The notes beneath the pieces are model-generated. The model had not been told where the DNA came from. It was given only the letters and a program-made list of their open reading frames with translations, and searched no databases. A stretch of DNA of 32,919 bases from Planctomycetota bacterium (lineage in GTDB: Bacteria > JAJVIF01 > JAPKYR01), in the NCBI GenBank assembly GCA_030614715.1, contig JAUWTM010000027.1:1-32919 (forward strand). Reading direction: 5' to 3'. This document shows positions 20,414 through 28,203 of the stretch, in pieces; positions within the stretch are counted from its first letter, which is position 1, and every line of letters starts with the position of its first letter. The translations under genes were made by a program, and so were the position numbers.

Positions 20414-21016
20414 ATGGAAGAATACCAGAAATGGTTCGAAGAATTGAAAGACCTTCTCGAGTCGGCCTATGTTAAGGCGGACACGCCGTGGGAGCAGTCG
20501 GGATTTTCGGGTCCTGAGGAGAGATGGGTCGCGGTGAGGAAGCCGATCGCCAACTGCATGAATGATTCAGGGACGTTCCGGGATATCGGCTGTGCGAACG
20601 GTTACCTGCTCGAGTGCGTGATGAAATGGGCGTCCGAGAGGGAGGTGGAAATCGATCCATGGGGACTGGATCTTTCGGAGACGCTGGTCGGGATGGCGAA
20701 GAAACGTCTGCAGGATAAAAAGAAGCAAATATTTGTCGGGAACGGCATGTACTGGAACCCGCCGAGGAAATTCGATTACGTAAGGACCGAACTCTGTTAC
20801 GTACCGGAGGAACTGAGGAAGGAATATATTGAAAGGCTGCTGGGTAATTTTGTCAACGATGGCGGAAGACTCCTGGTAGCGGAATATCGCAGCCAGAAAG
20901 ACGATGGCAGGGATCCATGGGTGGATGATTTACTGAAGGACATGGGCTTCGAGGTTGATTATTGCGAGTGGGGTTACTGGCAGGGGAAGGAACTCACTAG
21001 GATTGCATTGATCTAA
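20414..21016 (+). CDS. Class I SAM-dependent methyltransferase
   Basis: A 200-residue protein with motif I of class I methyltransferases in FRDIGCANGYLLECV, an acidic residue at the end of the second strand (IDPWGLDLSETLVGMAKKRL), and a later GGRLLVAEYRS segment typical of strand 5. It is close to a minimal methyltransferase fold without an added substrate domain, so the target is unknown. ATG 20414 gives a sensible N-terminus; the frame is open farther upstream but would overlap most of the start of the divergent kinase gene. Its 3' side carries a palindrome at 21044-21064. Confidence 0.82.
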   Translation: MEEYQKWFEELKDLLESAYVKADTPWEQSGFSGPEERWVAVRKPIANCMNDSGTFRDIGCANGYLLECVMKWASEREVEIDPWGLDLSETLVGMAKKRLQDKKKQIFVGNGMYWNPPRKFDYVRTELCYVPEELRKEYIERLLGNFVNDGGRLLVAEYRSQKDDGRDPWVDDLLKDMGFEVDYCEWGYWQGKELTRIALI

Positions 21017-21043
21017 TTACTAATGTATCAGATTTGAGTGAAT

Positions 21044-21064
21044 GCGGGATCAGGATGATCCCGC
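21044..21064. repeat. Nine-base palindrome with three-base loop
   Basis: GCGGGATCA (21044-21052), loop GGA, TGATCCCGC (21056-21064). It lies 27 bp after the methyltransferase stop with no T-run. Its design (perfect GC-rich stem, three-base loop) is the same as four palindromes at 24216-24304. Confidence 0.75.
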
Positions 21065-21072
21065 TCCGGCCG

Positions 21073-21108
21073 ACTGGAAGTCGCCCCTCCCACTGGAAGT
21101 CGCCCCTC
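21073..21108. repeat. Direct repeat of 17 bp, period 19
   Basis: ACTGGAAGTCGCCCCTC occurs at 21073-21089 and again at 21092-21108, separated by CC. It adjoins the palindrome at 21044-21064 and lies in the 286-bp non-coding stretch before the GrpE-like gene. The rest of that stretch holds only the promoter listed separately. Confidence 0.85.
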
Positions 21109-21228
21109 TACATGAAGTAGCACATCCATGGGGATTATTGGAGCTCAAGCGGTTTCAGGGACATTACGGATTTCAACTCGTTATAGCGTATCGTGTAAGA
21201 TATCCGCCGTAAACATATGTCGGTGGAG

Positions 21229-21257
21229 TTGTGATTCCCATATCGGGTTTATATAAT
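21229..21257 (+). promoter_or_regulatory. Candidate promoter of the membrane GrpE-like gene
   Basis: TTGTGA (21229-21234), a 17-bp spacer and a perfect TATAAT (21252-21257). Transcription would start near 21264, about 40 nt before ATG 21303, which supports that start rather than the in-frame GTG at 21231. No CIRCE-type heat-shock operator was seen around it. Confidence 0.6.
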
Positions 21258-21302
21258 TCATTCCTGTTGCTATCCAGGGAGGCAGGATCTAAATCCAGAA
21301 CA

Positions 21303-22085
21303 ATGGCAGACGAAAGAAAACCCGGCGGGGGACGAAAACCTTCAATGCAGACATCAAGACGCTGGTCGTTCGACCTTGCGTCGATCTTTCTCACGATTAT
21401 CGCCACGATCCTGATTCTGGACAGTTTCATTCGCGACTCATGGCTGTTTCTGCTGATCGGGATAATCGGATTGATCGCCGCAATGGGTTTTCTGGTCCTT
21501 CCGGAGATGATCAAACGCAAAGAACCTGATGCGGAAATAACTAACGAGGATACGGATAAGCTGAAGGCTACACTCGCGGAGCTTGAAACAACTTTGATGG
21601 AGCTTCACAGGGACCAGGAAGGGGTCAAACGCGCCGGACACGTCATGGAGAGCGGTGTTCAGGAGATTTCCGATGGCGTCGCGCTTGCGATTGAGAAAAT
21701 CAGGGGTATGAGTGATACCCAGGAGCAGCTGATCGCGCTGCGTCAGGAATCCGGCGAGGCAAAACGTCACATCGATGAATGGCTTGAGGCGTCGATGGAG
21801 TACATGGACTTCCTTGACCGTACGCTGAGGCTCGAGGGGATCGATGAGAACTATGTCAAGGCGATAGAGAAGGCAAGGTCGCAGTTTGTCAGCAGGCTTG
21901 TCGGGCTGGGAGTGAGCGAGATCAGCCCTGAGGTCGGAGACGAGGTCGATGAAAGGCTGCACAGGGCTGAGGGATTCGAGGATGCTGAAGGATTGCCGTC
22001 GGGAGTGATTGCGGTAGTTATCTGTACCGGCTTTGCAACCGGGAGGAAGGTCCTGCGTCCAGCTATTGTAAGGGTAACGCAGTGA
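21303..22085 (+). CDS. Membrane-anchored GrpE-like nucleotide-exchange factor (putative)
   Basis: A 260-residue protein. After a basic N-terminus come two hydrophobic segments, about residues 26-43 (ASIFLTIIATILILDSF) and 47-68 (SWLFLLIGIIGLIAAMGFLV), then a long charged helical, probably coiled-coil region (about 80-185), and a C-terminal beta domain like that of GrpE. The ending GFATGRKVLRPAIVRVTQ nearly matches the GrpE signature, and VDERLHRAEGF resembles its FDP..HeA part. GrpE releases ADP from Hsp70; ordinary GrpE is soluble and about 190 residues. The next gene encodes an Hsp70, supporting the role. Exchange activity is inferred. ATG 21303 follows the promoter at 21229-21257. Confidence 0.78.
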   Translation: MADERKPGGGRKPSMQTSRRWSFDLASIFLTIIATILILDSFIRDSWLFLLIGIIGLIAAMGFLVLPEMIKRKEPDAEITNEDTDKLKATLAELETTLMELHRDQEGVKRAGHVMESGVQEISDGVALAIEKIRGMSDTQEQLIALRQESGEAKRHIDEWLEASMEYMDFLDRTLRLEGIDENYVKAIEKARSQFVSRLVGLGVSEISPEVGDEVDERLHRAEGFEDAEGLPSGVIAVVICTGFATGRKVLRPAIVRVTQ

Positions 22086-22103
22086 AGAAGGTTGGAAAAT
22101 TAT

Positions 22104-22289
22104 ACTGAGCTTGTACATTAGATGAGACACCCTCAAGCACCAGTGGACGCATGAGAGAGTAACCATCCTCGTGTGCTTGAGGGAGGCATTAGGGAATTTT
22201 TAACTGAGCTTGTACATTAGATGAGACACCCTCAAGCACCAGTAGACACATGAGAGAGTAACCATCCTCGTGTGCTTGAGGGAGGCATT
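22104..22289. repeat. Tandem pair of 87-nt repeats with internal dyad symmetry
   Basis: Copies at 22104-22190 and 22203-22289 differ at only two bases. Each holds CCCTCAAGCAC (22130-22140; 22229-22239) and its perfect complement GTGCTTGAGGG (22173-22183; 22272-22282). Inside, CGCATGAG (22148-22155) or, in copy 2, CACATGAG can pair with CTCGTGTG (22168-22175 and equivalent); the G-to-A change turns a G-U pair into A-U. The element fills most of the 295-bp gap between the GrpE-like gene and the Hsp70 gene. It may be a structured RNA or a protein-binding site; no known class is recognised. Confidence 0.9.
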
Positions 22290-22380
22290 GGAAATTTTGT
22301 TTGTTTTTAAAGGATTGGATGTTCTTTGAAGCAGTAATTGAGAAGGAATTTCGAGTTTATTAATTTTAAGGAGTACTGAG

Positions 22381-24147
22381 ATGGCGCAGCCGCCGGTTGG
22401 TATTGATTTAGGCACATCCACATCGGAGATCGCGTACTACGACTCCGCATCGGGTCAGCCGCAACTTATTCCCGACCCGCTTACGGGCAGTCCGATCATT
22501 CCGTCGCTTGTCGCGAAGAGCCACAAGGGTGAGCTCCTGGTCGGTGAAGCAGCGCGCGCGTTCGTGGACCTGCCCGGACGGGGTGTGCGCGAGATCAAGC
22601 GCAAGATGGGATCGTCCGACATGGTGGAGATGGACGGCACGATGTACCGTCCAGAGGAAATTTCCGCGGTTATCCTCACGAGGCTGAAGCAGATCGCGTC
22701 CGAAGCCCTTGGAACCGAGGTCACAGAGGCCGTTATCTCGGTGCCCGCGAACTTCCCGGACACGGCCAGGACCGCGACACGTAACGCTGCCGAACTCGCA
22801 GGACTGACCGTACTTCGTCTAGTAAACGAGCCGACTGCAGCTGCGATGGCTTATGGAATTCTGAACCTCGACAAGGATGAGAAGATTCTTGTCTTCGACT
22901 TCGGCGGTGGCACGCTCGATATCAGCATACTTGAGATGTTCGAGGGCGTGCTGGACGTGAAATCGAGCTTCGGCGACGTGAAGCTTGGCGGTAAAGACAT
23001 CGATGCGAAGATGATCGAGCTTATCAAATCAAAGTTCATGAGGAAATACCCGAACGCCGAGATAAACGAGACCTCAATGGCCTTGCTCAAGGGTGTCGCT
23101 GAGAAAACGAAGATTTCGCTATCCGCGAATACTGAAACCATGGCAGAAATGGCGAGTTTCGCTGTCGATCGCGGGTCGCCGGTTGATTTGAACGTGGAGG
23201 TTGCGCGTCACGAGTTCGAGTGGGAGATCAGGGACATTCTCGAAAGGACCCGTAAGACCCTCACAGAGGCGTTGAGGAAGAAAAACGTGTACGCGCACGA
23301 TATCGATAAAGTCCTGCTTGTCGGCGGGACGACATATATTCCGAGCATCAGGAAACTCGTAAGGGACTTCTTCGGGAAGGATCCGCAGACCGATGTAAAC
23401 CCGGACAAGGCTGTATCCCTTGGAACCGCGATCAAGGCGGGGATCGTGAAGGCTGAGATCCCGACCCAGACAGGACTTATCGTCACCGACGTGTGCCCGT
23501 TCGGGCTCGGAGTTCGGACGATGGAGAAGGTCGGGACGCAGATTCGTGACGACTGCTACCAGTCGCTGATCCAGCCGAACACGACAGTCCCCTATTCAGG
23601 CAGGACACGTTTCAGTTTAATCGAACCGGACCAGGACAAGCTGAAGGTCGAGGTGTACCAGGATCATGACGGTGCCGCGCGTTACATCCACGAGGCGGTC
23701 CCGACCGGGTACGAGGGGACAATCATCGGGATTCCACCGTCAAGAACACGCGTCCCGCACGAGGTGGAAGTGTCGCTCGAATACAACGCGAACGGATTGA
23801 TCGAGATAATGGCAAAGATACCTGCAACCGGGCATAACTGCCGTGTATCGTTTAAAGCGTCGGGTATCAGGATGTCGCAAACAGACCTGATCACGAGTGA
23901 GTTGAAGCTGAAGACGCTGCTTCAGGACACGTCGCTGGGTGCGTATAAGGGATCGGCTGCGAAGAGCATCCTGACAAAGTCGGAGCAGATGCTGAAAAAG
24001 AAGCTGTCACCGAGCGATTCCGCGATATTGAGGTCGCTTGTGAATGACCTTAAGAGCGCGATGAATATTAAGGACGCGCGACGTATCGAGATTGCCGTGG
24101 ACAAGCTGACGGACACGATGTTCGAGATGGAGAAGAGGTACAGGTAG
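22381..24147 (+). CDS. Divergent Hsp70 (DnaK-like) chaperone
   Basis: A 588-residue Hsp70, an ATP-driven chaperone. Nucleotide-domain signatures are GIDLGTSTS (residues 7-15; the usual is IDLGTTNS), VFDFGGGTLDIS (171-182) and KVLLVGGTTYIPSIRKLV (310-327), with VNEPTAAAMAYG at about 148-159. The linker and first strand of the substrate domain are IVTDVCPFGLGV (367-378). The substrate domain reaches about residue 510 and a short helical end of about 75 residues follows, so the lid is shorter than in E. coli DnaK (638) and there is no EEVD-like tail. ATG 22381 has AAGGAG eight bases upstream. It lies between GrpE-like and J-domain genes, so it is probably a dedicated paralogue rather than the housekeeping DnaK. 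Confidence 0.93.
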   Translation: MAQPPVGIDLGTSTSEIAYYDSASGQPQLIPDPLTGSPIIPSLVAKSHKGELLVGEAARAFVDLPGRGVREIKRKMGSSDMVEMDGTMYRPEEISAVILTRLKQIASEALGTEVTEAVISVPANFPDTARTATRNAAELAGLTVLRLVNEPTAAAMAYGILNLDKDEKILVFDFGGGTLDISILEMFEGVLDVKSSFGDVKLGGKDIDAKMIELIKSKFMRKYPNAEINETSMALLKGVAEKTKISLSANTETMAEMASFAVDRGSPVDLNVEVARHEFEWEIRDILERTRKTLTEALRKKNVYAHDIDKVLLVGGTTYIPSIRKLVRDFFGKDPQTDVNPDKAVSLGTAIKAGIVKAEIPTQTGLIVTDVCPFGLGVRTMEKVGTQIRDDCYQSLIQPNTTVPYSGRTRFSLIEPDQDKLKVEVYQDHDGAARYIHEAVPTGYEGTIIGIPPSRTRVPHEVEVSLEYNANGLIEIMAKIPATGHNCRVSFKASGIRMSQTDLITSELKLKTLLQDTSLGAYKGSAAKSILTKSEQMLKKKLSPSDSAILRSLVNDLKSAMNIKDARRIEIAVDKLTDTMFEMEKRYR

Positions 24148-24177
24148 TTTACTGAATGAAATATCGGAATATAATAG

Positions 24178-24304
24178 ACGCCGACAGTAGTCGGCGTTAA
24201 TGTTATACGGCTTTGGCGGACAAGCTGTCCGCGATACTGCAGACTGGCAGTCTGCGTTACGTAAGCGGACGGGACGTCCGCTAGACAGCCGGCGGGACGC
24301 CCGC
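24178..24304. repeat. Row of five short palindromes
   Basis: Five perfect stems stand in a row: ACGCCGAC/GTCGGCGT (24178-24197), GCGGACA/TGTCCGC (24216-24232), GCAGACT/AGTCTGC (24239-24255), AGCGGACG/CGTCCGCT (24264-24282) and GCGGG/CCCGC (24292-24304). The last four have three-base loops. They fill the 213-bp gap between the Hsp70 and J-domain genes. The first could work as a weak terminator for the Hsp70 gene (TTAATGTT follows); the rest look like a cluster of REP-type elements. Confidence 0.85.
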
Positions 24305-24360
24305 GCTACGTGAAAATCTGCAATATGGTGTGTAAGGAAATGATTTGTTAGAGTCAGCTA

Positions 24361-25818
24361 ATGGAGAAGACGGAACAACATAGTGACTTTTATGCGGTCC
24401 TTGGTGTGGAGAAGGACACTGTGCATGACGATATCCGTCGTGCGTACTACCGTCTTGTCCGTAAACACCCGCCGAATGTCGATCCTGACGGCTTCCAGAG
24501 AATCAAGCGTGCATGGGATACGCTTAGCGATGAGAGGGCGCGGAAGTCGTACGATGCAAAATCGCAGTATGGTGAGGATATTCAACGCCTGATGGACCAG
24601 GTGTTCGCGTATATTGAAAAGATGGATTTCAGTACCGGGGAGAAGCTCCTTAAACGCGTGCTGGTCCTCGATCCCGAGGCTGACGAAGCGCTGGATCTGC
24701 TTGGATCGTGCCAGGTGGGCCTGGGCAGGCACGACGACGCTATCGTGACTTACACCGAGCTGACTGACAGGGTATCAGACGTTCCGCTTTACTGGATCCG
24801 CATCGGTGAGGCCTACATGTTGAAAGCGGCATACGGTGGTCCGTTCGAGGTTAAAGACCTGCTGGAAACCGCACGTGTACACTTCCGCAGTGCTAACGAG
24901 ATAGACCGGATCAACAACACGCCGTACCTTTCTATAGCCAAGTCCTACATGATGGAGAAGGATTACGATCGTGCGGTCGATTGGGTCGAAAAGGCGATCA
25001 TGGCTGACGAGGGAGTCGATTATAAGGACTTCGACGCGTTGTTCTACCTTGCCAGGATTCACGCGATGTCGGGCGTACCTGTGAAGGTGCTGGATGTCGC
25101 GAAACGAATAGAGGAGCTTGCACCGGAGGACAGCGAGATAAGGCTGACTGTCGCGGCCCAGTTTGTCGATGCAGCGTACGAGCTTATGGATTCCGAACTT
25201 TACACCGAGGCTGGCTACTTCGTGGATGCGGCGAGGAAGTTCGATCCGAAGAATGTAATTTACTGGGAGCTCAGGGACAAGGTCCGACTGATTGTCGAGG
25301 CGAACAGGTACCGTCCGGGCATGGAAGTGGACAACTCGATCATCCAGCCGGTAAGGTCGCTTGCGTCGCTTGTGTTCAGTAACTACGCGGGACAAGTACC
25401 GGACGTCAGTTACATAAAAACTGCGGAACGTCTTAAAAACCAGATGGCTACCTATTCAACCGCCAACACGGCAAGCAGCATCGAGTACCTGAAGAGCCAG
25501 TACCCATGGTTTTATGACCTGGCACCGCAGATGTGGGACGACATCGTAAAGTCCCTGCGTCAATCCACGCCAATCCCGTCCAATATTTTCGATCACAGGA
25601 GCACGCTGAAGCAGACGATGTTTGATTTCTACCAGTCTGATTACAAGCCGGGAACCGCCCCTGCATCGGGTTCGTCAGCGAAATTCGGCTGGGGATGTAT
25701 GTTTGCGATAATAGGGGCGTTTATCGGATCGATAATACAATTCCCGATCGGGACGATGTTCGGGATATTTATCGGCATCTGGATCGGGGATTATGTAACA
25801 CGGATGCAGGACTCCTGA
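24361..25818 (+). CDS. J-domain/TPR protein with C-terminal membrane hairpin, HPP instead of HPD
   Basis: A 485-residue protein. Residues 8-66 form a J-domain-like unit (DFYAVLGVEKDT, DDIRRAYYRLVRKHPP, GFQRIKRAWDTLSDERARKSYD). The loop that should read HPD is HPP at 36-38, followed by N-V-D-P-D-G-F. Residues of about 70-310 are helical repeats of TPR type (FSTGEKLLKRVLVLDPEADE, DYDRAVDWVEKAIMADEG). After a less clear middle part, residues of about 440-478 form two hydrophobic glycine-rich segments (FAIIGAFIGSIIQFPIGTMF, GIFIGIWIG), a likely membrane hairpin. J-proteins bring clients to Hsp70 and stimulate its ATPase; TPRs bind protein partners. Its neighbour is an Hsp70. Loss of the catalytic Asp leaves stimulation in doubt. 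The ribosome site is weak. Confidence 0.85.
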   Translation: MEKTEQHSDFYAVLGVEKDTVHDDIRRAYYRLVRKHPPNVDPDGFQRIKRAWDTLSDERARKSYDAKSQYGEDIQRLMDQVFAYIEKMDFSTGEKLLKRVLVLDPEADEALDLLGSCQVGLGRHDDAIVTYTELTDRVSDVPLYWIRIGEAYMLKAAYGGPFEVKDLLETARVHFRSANEIDRINNTPYLSIAKSYMMEKDYDRAVDWVEKAIMADEGVDYKDFDALFYLARIHAMSGVPVKVLDVAKRIEELAPEDSEIRLTVAAQFVDAAYELMDSELYTEAGYFVDAARKFDPKNVIYWELRDKVRLIVEANRYRPGMEVDNSIIQPVRSLASLVFSNYAGQVPDVSYIKTAERLKNQMATYSTANTASSIEYLKSQYPWFYDLAPQMWDDIVKSLRQSTPIPSNIFDHRSTLKQTMFDFYQSDYKPGTAPASGSSAKFGWGCMFAIIGAFIGSIIQFPIGTMFGIFIGIWIGDYVTRMQDS

Positions 25819-25879
25819 GGATCCGCTTTCCCAGATGCTTCGGCGGACAGGGACACCCATGATACGTTACATAAGAGTG

Positions 25880-26383
25880 TTATTCGTCGATTTCCAGAGC
25901 CGGCCAGTTATCCGCGTATAAAGGCTGGACGTACCACCATCGTCCGTCCCTGAAGAGGAAATGAAGCCTGATTACCTGGCTTGAGGCAAATGGATTGTAC
26001 ACGGAATCATCGGTCCTGTCGTTAGCCCACTCAATTACCCCTGAATTGGTCAGGTCGACCCCAACTGTCATCCGGTTGTCCTCGTAGGTCTGGTAAAGGA
26101 GGAAGTTATCCTTCAGGAGGCTTCTCAGAGTCGCAATGTCCCCTGGATTTTTTGTAAGCTCGTTTGTGCCAATGTTACCCGGCCAGGTGTTTGCGTTCAG
26201 GAAGTCGTTATCAATGGTCAGCGTGGCTACTACTACGTCTTCTATGAAGGAATTTGAAATCTGTCTGGGGGTACATCCGGGGATGAGCATCAGCGTACAG
26301 GTGATGAAGATAAGCACCAGGTTCAGCGTCGGTGGAACTCCCGCACCAGCTGATTTTAGTATCCTGTATGCGATTTTTTTCAA
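25880..26383 (-). CDS. Small lipoprotein of unknown function
   Basis: A 167-residue protein if translated from TTG 26383, which has a strong GGGAGGTG seven bases upstream; the in-frame ATG 26407 has no ribosome site and would add eight residues. The N-terminus is a lipoprotein signal: basic start KKIAYRILK, hydrophobic LNLVLIFITCTLML and lipobox LIPGC, so it is probably lipid-modified at that Cys and anchored in the envelope. The rest (about 130 residues) has no recognised domain but ends with a beta-rich RDGRWWYVQPLYADNWP, reminiscent of small NTF2-like folds; this is only a resemblance. It converges on the J-domain gene and is divergent from the MCE gene. Confidence 0.7.
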   Translation of the reverse strand: MKKIAYRILKSAGAGVPPTLNLVLIFITCTLMLIPGCTPRQISNSFIEDVVVATLTIDNDFLNANTWPGNIGTNELTKNPGDIATLRSLLKDNFLLYQTYEDNRMTVGVDLTNSGVIEWANDRTDDSVYNPFASSQVIRLHFLFRDGRWWYVQPLYADNWPALEIDE

Positions 26384-26514
26384 TGGAATACACCTCCCGT
26401 GCGCCATGATACAGGGCAGTTAACGGTGAAATCAAACTCGGGGGGTGCTGGATAAGAGGTCGATTGCACCAACGGTGCACTATAGGGGAGGTTATTTATT
26501 GTGATTAAATCAGT

Positions 26515-26520
26515 TATAAT
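26515..26520 (+). promoter_or_regulatory. Candidate -10 element upstream of the MCE gene
   Basis: A perfect TATAAT at 26515-26520 within an A/T-rich stretch 79 bp before the MCE ATG. The -35 at the right distance (26492-26497, TTATTT) is poor, so an activator or another sigma factor may be involved. The 215-bp stretch between the divergent lipoprotein and MCE genes shows nothing else I can name. Confidence 0.4.
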
Positions 26521-26598
26521 ACCTTCCATTGAGGGAGGAACCCTTCGTCGACCTGTGAGTGGGTTATAGTTATACCTGTCGAGACGGAAGGGTGTGAA

Positions 26599-28203
26599 AT
26601 GAAAGTCTCATCTGCCGCAAAAGTAGGTTTCACCGCGATCATTCTAATCGCTGTGCTTGTAGTGGTTTACAAGGGCGAAGATTGGGACTTGGACCTACCG
26701 TTCTTACCCAAGTCAAATATCGGCGTGTATACAATATTCGCCAAATTCGACTCGGTAAAGGGCCTGAAACCCGGGGCAGAAGTGCAGTTGAATGGGTTCG
26801 AGGTAGGGGAAGTTGGAGAGATGAATACCATCCCTTTCGGGAGAGTCAGGGTAGAGCTGATGATCAGTGACGACGAGATAATACACGAGCATGCCGAAGC
26901 CCTGATCACCCGTGACAGTATTTTCGGAGGCTACCTGGTGTTCATCAGTGAGCCGAGGTCCGGTTATGCGACCGGGATCGATGACGACGGCAGGCTGGTA
27001 GTCCTTATCGAGTCCGGGCAGGTCAATCCAGGCGGTCTGGTAATCATGGACGACACCCCTATCGGAATAATTGAAAGCGTGACTCCCGATGAAGATGACT
27101 GGATAGACGAGGTTATTATCGAACTCGGCAGCGATGTCATTGTTCCTGCGGATGTCGCGTATCTTCCCGTGCGACCGGTAATGGGGCTTATAACAGGTCT
27201 GGCAGTTTCTGAACGAATTGGTGAAGGCGCGGAGGTTCCGGGTGACCGCGAGGCCGGCCCGGAAGACCTCGTGGCGAATGCGGATGAAGCACTGGGCCAG
27301 ATGTCCGATCAGACCACGGCAATTATGCAGCAGCTTGGTGGTCTTCTGGACAATATAGAAGAGCTGCTCGCACCTGAGGATATACGTAACCTTGTCGAAG
27401 GGATAACCTCTGAAATCACAACGATCGCGGACAATATCATTGAGTTGACCGACAGGGTGAATTACATCGTTGCCACTAGCGAGCCTTACATAATCAGAAC
27501 GGCAGAGAATATAGAGGGTCTCACCGAAGAAGCACATGAATTGATGGTGGGATTTGGCGAGTATAACGATCCTCAGATTAGAAAGGACATAGGTGATCTC
27601 CTGACTAACCTGGCGGTGGCGTCCGACAGGCTGGTTGAAATCCTCGAAGATGTTGAGGTGTACACGTCCGACGAGGAGTTGAGGGCCGATATCACCGGCT
27701 CGATCCACGAAGCCCGTATTGCTATCGAGCAGGCACAGGGCACGCTTGAGGCCGCTGAAGACACGATGGAGGATCTTTCCGATCTCGGGGTGGACCTGCT
27801 TGGCGGCATCGAGACCAGCGCCGAGTTCAGGCTCAGGAACGCACCTGAACCTGATCGATGGTCCGGTGATCTGAATGTCAGGATCGGTGTGGAGCGAAGC
27901 GACGTCTTCGTTACCGCTGGTATTGAGGATATTGGTGAAAGTGATATGGCGAATGTCCAGATCGGATGGTGGGTCAATGAGGGCATAGCCGCAAGGGCTG
28001 GCGTTCACAGGGATAAGCTGGGTCTCGGAATCGACTGGGAATCGGATGCATACTCAATCATGAATGACATATACGATTTGAACGACCTCAGGTGGGACAT
28101 CTACGCTGGTTACGCGATCCTTCCTGAGCTGAACCTGGTTGTCGGGGTTGAGGATCTGCTGGACGATGACGAATTGAATATCGGCTTTGCCTTCCAGTTC
28201 TAA
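26599..28203 (+). CDS. MCE-domain (MlaD-like) protein with beta-rich C-terminal domain
   Basis: A 534-residue envelope protein. It begins with a membrane anchor (about residues 9-25, VGFTAIILIAVLVVVYK), then an MCE domain at about 38-120 (YTIFAKFDSVKGLKPGAEVQ, LNGFEVGEVGEM, RDSIFGGYLVFIS). MCE proteins form hexameric rings or tubes that carry lipids between the membranes of diderm bacteria. A long helical region follows (about 225-400, Leu/Ile heptads with IADNIIELTDRVNYIVA). The last 130 residues are beta-rich and end in an aromatic residue (LNIGFAFQF), like a small outer-membrane barrel or beta-sheet end. A TamB-like gene follows after 29 bp, probably in one operon. ATP-binding and permease partners (MlaF/MlaE-like) are not in the window. 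Confidence 0.88.
   Translation: MKVSSAAKVGFTAIILIAVLVVVYKGEDWDLDLPFLPKSNIGVYTIFAKFDSVKGLKPGAEVQLNGFEVGEVGEMNTIPFGRVRVELMISDDEIIHEHAEALITRDSIFGGYLVFISEPRSGYATGIDDDGRLVVLIESGQVNPGGLVIMDDTPIGIIESVTPDEDDWIDEVIIELGSDVIVPADVAYLPVRPVMGLITGLAVSERIGEGAEVPGDREAGPEDLVANADEALGQMSDQTTAIMQQLGGLLDNIEELLAPEDIRNLVEGITSEITTIADNIIELTDRVNYIVATSEPYIIRTAENIEGLTEEAHELMVGFGEYNDPQIRKDIGDLLTNLAVASDRLVEILEDVEVYTSDEELRADITGSIHEARIAIEQAQGTLEAAEDTMEDLSDLGVDLLGGIETSAEFRLRNAPEPDRWSGDLNVRIGVERSDVFVTAGIEDIGESDMANVQIGWWVNEGIAARAGVHRDKLGLGIDWESDAYSIMNDIYDLNDLRWDIYAGYAILPELNLVVGVEDLLDDDELNIGFAFQF

Follow-up and report, generated by a model that had tools for sequence, protein, structure and literature searches.

An HscC-related Hsp70 between a GrpE-like protein with a predicted membrane hairpin and a J-like/TPR protein that has lost HPD, in a Planctomycetota bacterium

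We analysed a 32,919-nucleotide stretch of DNA (the window; contig JAUWTM010000027.1 of assembly GCA_030614715.1) from a Planctomycetota bacterium, in which three plus-strand genes encode, in order, a GrpE-like protein (P0001), an Hsp70 (P0002) and a J/TPR protein (P0003). An earlier note, made from the letters of the DNA, had read these genes as an Hsp70 system with two membrane-anchored co-chaperones. Its coordinates, strand and gene order were correct, and its family calls hold, since the GrpE, HSP70 and DnaJ plus TPR Pfam matches are above cut-off or strong. The genes are as follows:

21303..22085, + strand: P0001, putative GrpE-family nucleotide exchange factor, 260 residues, with an N-terminal membrane hairpin (Pfam, own-genome profile, PDB match)
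22381..24147, + strand: P0002, HscC-related Hsp70, 588 residues (Pfam HSP70, trees)
24361..25818, + strand: P0003, J-like/TPR protein, 485 residues, with a C-terminal hydrophobic stretch (Pfam DnaJ and TPR, homologues P0004 and P0005)

All three proteins are divergent, because NCBIfam equivalog models for GrpE, DnaK/HscA and DnaJ gave only sub-threshold scores on them. Profile and pattern searches were run on a collection of 386 genomes, five of which represent the host phylum, and membrane segments were judged by Kyte-Doolittle hydropathy and sequence shuffles. A profile search showed that the host genome carries three Hsp70 and three GrpE genes, located in the window and at two further loci, C21 (general DnaK) and C112, where each Hsp70 gene is adjoined by a GrpE gene of its own.

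GrpE is normally soluble, with a disordered N-terminus, and P0001 differs by two strong hydrophobic segments within residues 25-66, as read from its sequence. Its family membership is well marked: Pfam GrpE matches at 53.5 bits (cut-off 25.8) over residues 134-259 and profile columns 36-164 of 165, an own-genome GrpE profile search recovers it at 49.9 bits, and it matches the solved GrpE structures 3a6m (E 3e-7) and 4ani (E 1e-4). Two features stand out in the gene:

21375..21500, + strand: hydrophobic hairpin made by residues 25-43 and 48-66 of P0001, with basic flanks on both sides (hydropathy, shuffles)
21702..22079, + strand: GrpE domain of P0001, residues 134-259, with the final strand RKVLRPAIVRV (Pfam, alignment)

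The two 19-residue segments lie four residues apart, with mean Kyte-Doolittle values of 2.36 (25-43) and 2.89 (48-66), and the best hydrophobic 35-mer was equalled by 4 of 5000 shuffles. Because basic residues flank the hairpin on both sides, the sequence suggests that both of its ends face the cytosol and that the GrpE domain is cytosolic. Used as a query, P0001 found matches in 58 of the 386 genomes, its own included; none of the 58 other match rows starts before residue 69 and none covers the hairpin. Likewise, no 19-mer reaching a hydropathy of 1.6 was found in any of the 57 other GrpEs examined (37 of the 58 P0001-matched frames, all 10 others of the phylum and 10 from other loci). GrpE anchoring thus appears so far limited to P0001, while the unanchored module occurs elsewhere, and a literature search, with subscription papers and preprints largely beyond its reach, found no paper that, judged by title, deals with a bacterial membrane GrpE. 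Two unusual frames were also seen among the GrpE matches: one of 562 residues whose GrpE domain is followed by a long proline-rich C-terminal extension (L076, 10318-12006), and a 503-residue stop-to-stop frame with the domain near its C-terminal end (L056, genome G003).

P0002 matches Pfam HSP70 at 386.6 bits and contains the Hsp70 catalytic residues (D8, K70, E171, T199 and D201 of DnaK). The short lid that had been noticed in this 588-residue protein is real, with 86 or 93 residues (in two alignments) past the DnaK 505 column versus 134 in DnaK. Two motifs place the protein:

23167..23190, + strand: GrpE-signature loop DRGSPVDL, P0002 residues 263-270, around DnaK 290-295 (alignment)
23485..23511, + strand: HscC-type interdomain linker TDVCPFGLG, P0002 residues 369-377 (alignment, pattern search)

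In a 25-row tree P0002 paired with E. coli HscC (87/61), possibly through a long-branch artefact. When HscC-like and accessory Hsp70s were added, P0002 formed a clade (98/95) with the Hsp70s of locus L082, from the Clostridiales metagenome-assembled genome AS22ysBPME_279, and of genome G108; this clade and five HscC-type rows, E. coli HscC included, made up one side of a branch from the DnaK side (100/96, under a midpoint root only). The clade persisted when the HscC group was removed (100/98), and with the L082 and G108 proteins removed P0002 fell on the stem that separates HscC from the remaining rows, on the other side from HscC. An ordinary dnaK duplication was rejected on the trees and motifs.

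The GrpE-signature loop was present in the alignment in P0002 and in the L082 and G108 Hsp70s, and absent from E. coli HscC, four HscC-like proteins and HscA; the host's canonical DnaK (C21) and its C112 Hsp70 likewise retain it. Absence of this loop has been taken as an argument that HscA and HscC act without GrpE (PMC8215388; this and the other papers cited here were available as excerpts). Because the loop is retained, GrpE-driven nucleotide exchange on P0002 is plausible on sequence grounds; its presence also rules out HscC proper as the identity of P0002, which we therefore file as an HscC-related lineage. The lower salt bridge of the cleft is retained through R at DnaK position 55 and E at position 267, and the upper one is absent, although an HscC-like protein (G330) has a lower bridge too, so that it is no mark of the P0002 clade; a deletion of residues 76-101 is common to P0002, HscC and many aligned DnaKs. 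Among the J-contact residues, DnaK R167, N170 and P419 are conserved and Q378, a contact of D35, is replaced by K.

P0003 matches Pfam DnaJ at 47.5 bits (cut-off 27.8), together with several TPR families, and has two features of interest:

24469..24477, + strand: P-P-N at the HPD position, P0003 residues 37-39 (ungapped alignment to DnaJ, DjlB and DjlC)
25684..25788, + strand: 35-residue uncharged stretch, probable membrane hairpin of P0003, residues 442-476 (hydropathy, shuffles)

In an alignment that is ungapped up to the J loop, the HPD position reads HPD in DnaJ, HPE in DjlB and DjlC and P-P-N in P0003; in the other register the letters are H-P-P-N, in which H and P are retained and D is replaced. 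The J loop is six residues shorter than in DnaJ and equal to that of DjlB/DjlC, and the basic residues of helix II are retained. A classical HPD J protein as the identity of P0003 was ruled out by P-P-N. According to the excerpts available, HPN and QPD variants lose ATPase stimulation (PMC8215388, PMC13254874), and HPE, named for DjlB/DjlC, is the only HPD replacement that seems tolerated (PMC13254874). Since HPD is absent and HPN and QPD variants are reported inactive, it is doubtful that the P0003 J domain triggers ATP hydrolysis, and the delivery of clients by a classical J protein, as first proposed, has to be given up; by its sequence the domain may be a docking site or tether for Hsp70. 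HPD is found in all three other host-genome J proteins examined, and two of the three also have hydrophobic segments. Because HPD-bearing J proteins are present in the same genome, a trigger in trans is possible; L012 (742-1830, - strand) and L011 (250-1701, - strand), with five hydrophobic segments and one, are candidate membrane J proteins for such a role.

The C-terminal run of P0003 free of D, E, K, R and H (residues 442-476) was equalled by 1 of 5000 shuffles. Against an anchor, the protein has a single 19-mer above 1.6, which 231 of 2000 shuffles reach, so that this test is weak. C-terminal hydrophobic segments are also found in the homologues P0004 (own genome, contig C174) and P0005 (genome G001), the weakest by shuffle being that of P0004 (134 and 456 of 5000). 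The hydropathy and shuffle tests on P0001 and P0003 thus bear out the earlier reading that both putative co-chaperones carry membrane segments.

No named system with this layout had been known to the earlier note, but one that acts at the membrane surface exists: E. coli HscC with the tail-anchored DjlB/DjlC, which reportedly operates without GrpE and is the nearest named system. In the text available, action of DjlB/DjlC at the plasma membrane is inferred and HscC is reported to be independent of GrpE (PMC8215388). P0002 shares with HscC the TD[VI]CP linker, the 76-101 deletion and the short lid, whereas HscC lacks the GrpE-signature loop and no GrpE gene adjoins hscC. P0003 resembles DjlB/DjlC in size (475-485 residues), in its six-residue-shorter J loop, in a non-HPD motif, in a C-terminal hydrophobic anchor, as judged by hydropathy, and in the position of its gene next to the Hsp70 gene. 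It differs by PPN versus HPE, and hhalign detected no similarity beyond the J domain (46 columns).

The TD[VI]CP linker pattern occurred in 6 of the 386 genomes, and its reversed control gave none among the matches listed. Besides the host and G108, four genomes carry it in an Hsp70 whose gene adjoins that of a short-loop HPE J protein (two families), three of these four J proteins having hydrophobic segments; no GrpE was found beside these HscC-like Hsp70s in the 12-13 kb examined. The four loci are L158, L159, L160 and L161, and L158 also has an adjoining DUF1266 gene, like ybeU/ybeR at E. coli hscC/djlC.

A closely similar gene cluster lies at L082, with the order GrpE, Hsp70, TPR and J/TPR/SEC-C. 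It has the same gene order, an Hsp70 of the same clade with the GTSTSE and TDVCP motifs and the GrpE loop, and a non-HPD J domain (PPD); it differs by an extra TPR gene in between, by the SEC-C end of its J/TPR protein and by the lack of a hydrophobic anchor, no membrane segment being detected in its GrpE or J/TPR protein. A PLSDB search for the latter on plasmids gave no match at 1e-10. Other systems share single traits. Yeast Snl1, which is anchored in a membrane through its N-terminal segment, was given in 2014 as the only Hsp70 exchange factor known to be membrane-associated (PMC3962485, in excerpt), but it has a BAG domain, not a GrpE domain, and belongs to the eukaryotic endoplasmic reticulum. 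The soluble DnaK-DnaJ-GrpE system has the same three cycle components and differs by its soluble GrpE, HPD J domain and long lid; E. coli GrpE is evenly distributed in the cell (PMC8215388). Myxococcus xanthus DnaK2 with its adjoining GrpE gene MXAN_6672, likened here by published description only, is a specialised Hsp70 with a GrpE gene of its own (PMC11019930, in part). Mitochondrial Pam16, cited as a pseudo-J (PMC13254874), has a membrane J-like domain without HPD but is partnered with the HPD protein Pam18.

What the sequence itself shows is membership in the three families, the hydrophobic segments, a J domain that has lost HPD, and an Hsp70 with a retained GrpE loop and an HscC-type linker. 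Membrane insertion and its topology we only infer, as we do a joint action of P0001-P0003, docking that does not stimulate, release at one place and whatever client there may be. P0003 would be held in the membrane through its C-terminal hairpin, with its TPRs gathering clients or Hsp70, and its short-loop J domain, HPD lost, would dock P0002 at the membrane. ATP hydrolysis could then be triggered either by this J domain via co-evolved contacts or by an HPD J protein in trans. P0001, anchored by its hairpin, would open the nucleotide cleft of P0002 at the membrane, and client release would thereby be confined to that site. We judge the chances evenly balanced that P0001-P0003 are indeed partners in such a membrane-surface Hsp70 system, related to HscC-DjlB/DjlC and endowed with a membrane-fixed GrpE. 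From the cycle that had first been proposed, this keeps the GrpE match, the Hsp70, the J/TPR protein and the hydrophobic segments, and abandons classical J delivery and the lack of a named counterpart. More tentatively, an Hsp70 lineage sister to HscC may have kept GrpE, and one lineage within it may have put a J-like tether and GrpE into the membrane, so that client binding and release became spatially gated; no Hsp70 cycle gated in space in this way, with a J domain that lacks HPD, was described for bacteria in the literature searched.

Several observations weigh against this membrane-surface system. Within the phylum, both the anchored GrpE and the TD[VI]CP Hsp70 occur in one genome of five, that of the host; the lack of co-occurrence in relatives, which the earlier note had named as an outcome that would refute its reading, thus holds inside the phylum (0 of the 4 other genomes), and a widely conserved triad is ruled out there. 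These four genomes have two GrpE loci each, plus Hsp70 matches; phylum genomes are 82-99% complete, and single absences are therefore weak. A full-length J/TPR homologue exists in one of the four, P0005 of G001 (same family as the host), and neither it nor P0004 has an adjoining GrpE or Hsp70 gene. P0002 itself is a long branch whose side relative to HscC varies with sampling and rooting. Outside the phylum, genome G132 has a PP-type J/TPR gene, a GrpE gene and an Hsp70 gene next to one another; this Hsp70, however, is of another lineage, outside the P0002 clade and without the TD[VI]CP linker. At G108, the one genome representing its phylum, a TPR gene adjoins the Hsp70 gene and three PP/SP-type J/TPR proteins lie on other contigs, with no GrpE near the Hsp70 in the 13 kb examined. 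One of the G108 J domains, short-looped with SPE, sits in a 1075-residue protein (L144, 3747-6974, - strand) after long repeat arrays and before more TPR-like sequence. The genes of the window, finally, are spaced by 295 bp (GrpE-Hsp70) and 213 bp (Hsp70-J), and the gaps hold these features:

22094..22291, + strand: 99-bp repeat in the GrpE-Hsp70 gap, in two tandem copies of 93% identity, with an inner hairpin (sequence comparison, fold)
24178..24310, + strand: GC-rich palindrome cluster with a very stable predicted fold, in the Hsp70-J gap (fold z-score -7.3 for 24170-24310)

The 11-base core of the 99-bp repeat was not seen in three other host-genome stretches checked, and Rfam gave no match at gathering score in 20900-26700. 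A promoter-like site lies 3' of the Hsp70 gene, such sites being found at the number expected by chance. The gaps, the repeats and this site, as read from the sequence, speak against a single transcript.

The strongest alternative is that P0003 is a pseudo-J working with no Hsp70, in a structural membrane role, and that the chaperone pair consists of P0001 and P0002 alone. HPD is lost in all three phylum homologues (PPN, PPG in P0004 and IKQ in P0005), P0004 and P0005 have no Hsp70 next to them, and G001 has P0005 but no TD[VI]CP Hsp70. The J/TPR search matched 305 of the 386 genomes, mostly, among the matches listed, through the J domain or TPR part only, and a contig scan gave 32 loci; at two of them, G001 and L082, the match spans most of P0003. 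In the other phyla the HPD-position triplets are PPD (L082), PPE, SPE and SPE (G108), PPS (G110) and PPE (G132), so that across the nine J/TPR proteins compared the histidine is retained in none and the acid in five. All five are among the six PP/SP-type proteins from other phyla, G110 being the exception, and two PP-type genes (L082, G132) adjoin GrpE and Hsp70, which argues that the J fold is under selection with Hsp70 at least in cases of the L082/G132 type. P0003, moreover, retains the basic residues of helix II. We consider the structural role unlikely, yet worth a serious hearing.

It is improbable that the anchored GrpE acts at the membrane on the general DnaK (C21) or on the C112 Hsp70, with its adjacency to P0002 incidental. 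In favour of this, DnaKs have conserved sites for GrpE binding, both of these Hsp70s retain the GrpE loop, and the intergenic gaps are large, but each has its own adjoining GrpE, and at L082 a GrpE adjoins the same kind of Hsp70 as P0002. A recent duplication of an ordinary dnaK-grpE-dnaJ set with meaningless membrane segments is very improbable, for although the GrpE-Hsp70-J order is common and the C112 GrpE/Hsp70 pair has a similar gap (288 bp), P0002 groups with neither the DnaK nor the C112 Hsp70 of its own genome, all 57 other GrpEs examined lack membrane segments, HPD is lost and the linker is changed. We hold just as improbable a soluble P0001 whose hydrophobic N-terminus is a helical-bundle or signal-like region: the anchor is drawn from hydropathy in one genome, but against it stand two strongly hydrophobic 19-residue segments, closely spaced and flanked by basic residues.

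Downstream of P0003, a minus-strand gene (25880-26407) encodes a small protein that contains a lipobox-like LIPGC and matches nothing in Pfam at E 0.1, and a plus-strand gene (26599-28203) encodes a 534-residue protein with an MlaD/MCE domain (52 bits), an N-terminal hydrophobic segment by eye and a long C-terminal remainder. The adjoining lipobox and MlaD genes give no evidence either way as clients.

In one review, "localized nucleotide exchange" is considered as a rationale for exchange factors; for GrpE the part available holds it refuted, because GrpE is evenly distributed in E. coli (PMC8215388). An anchored GrpE, if true, would be a natural test of this idea and would allow testing whether bacteria control the site of chaperone client release. 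Whether departures from HPD are accidental or selected has been called enigmatic (PMC13254874, in excerpt); the PP-type J/TPR proteins, present in several phyla and in two cases beside GrpE and Hsp70, offer a concrete family for this question.

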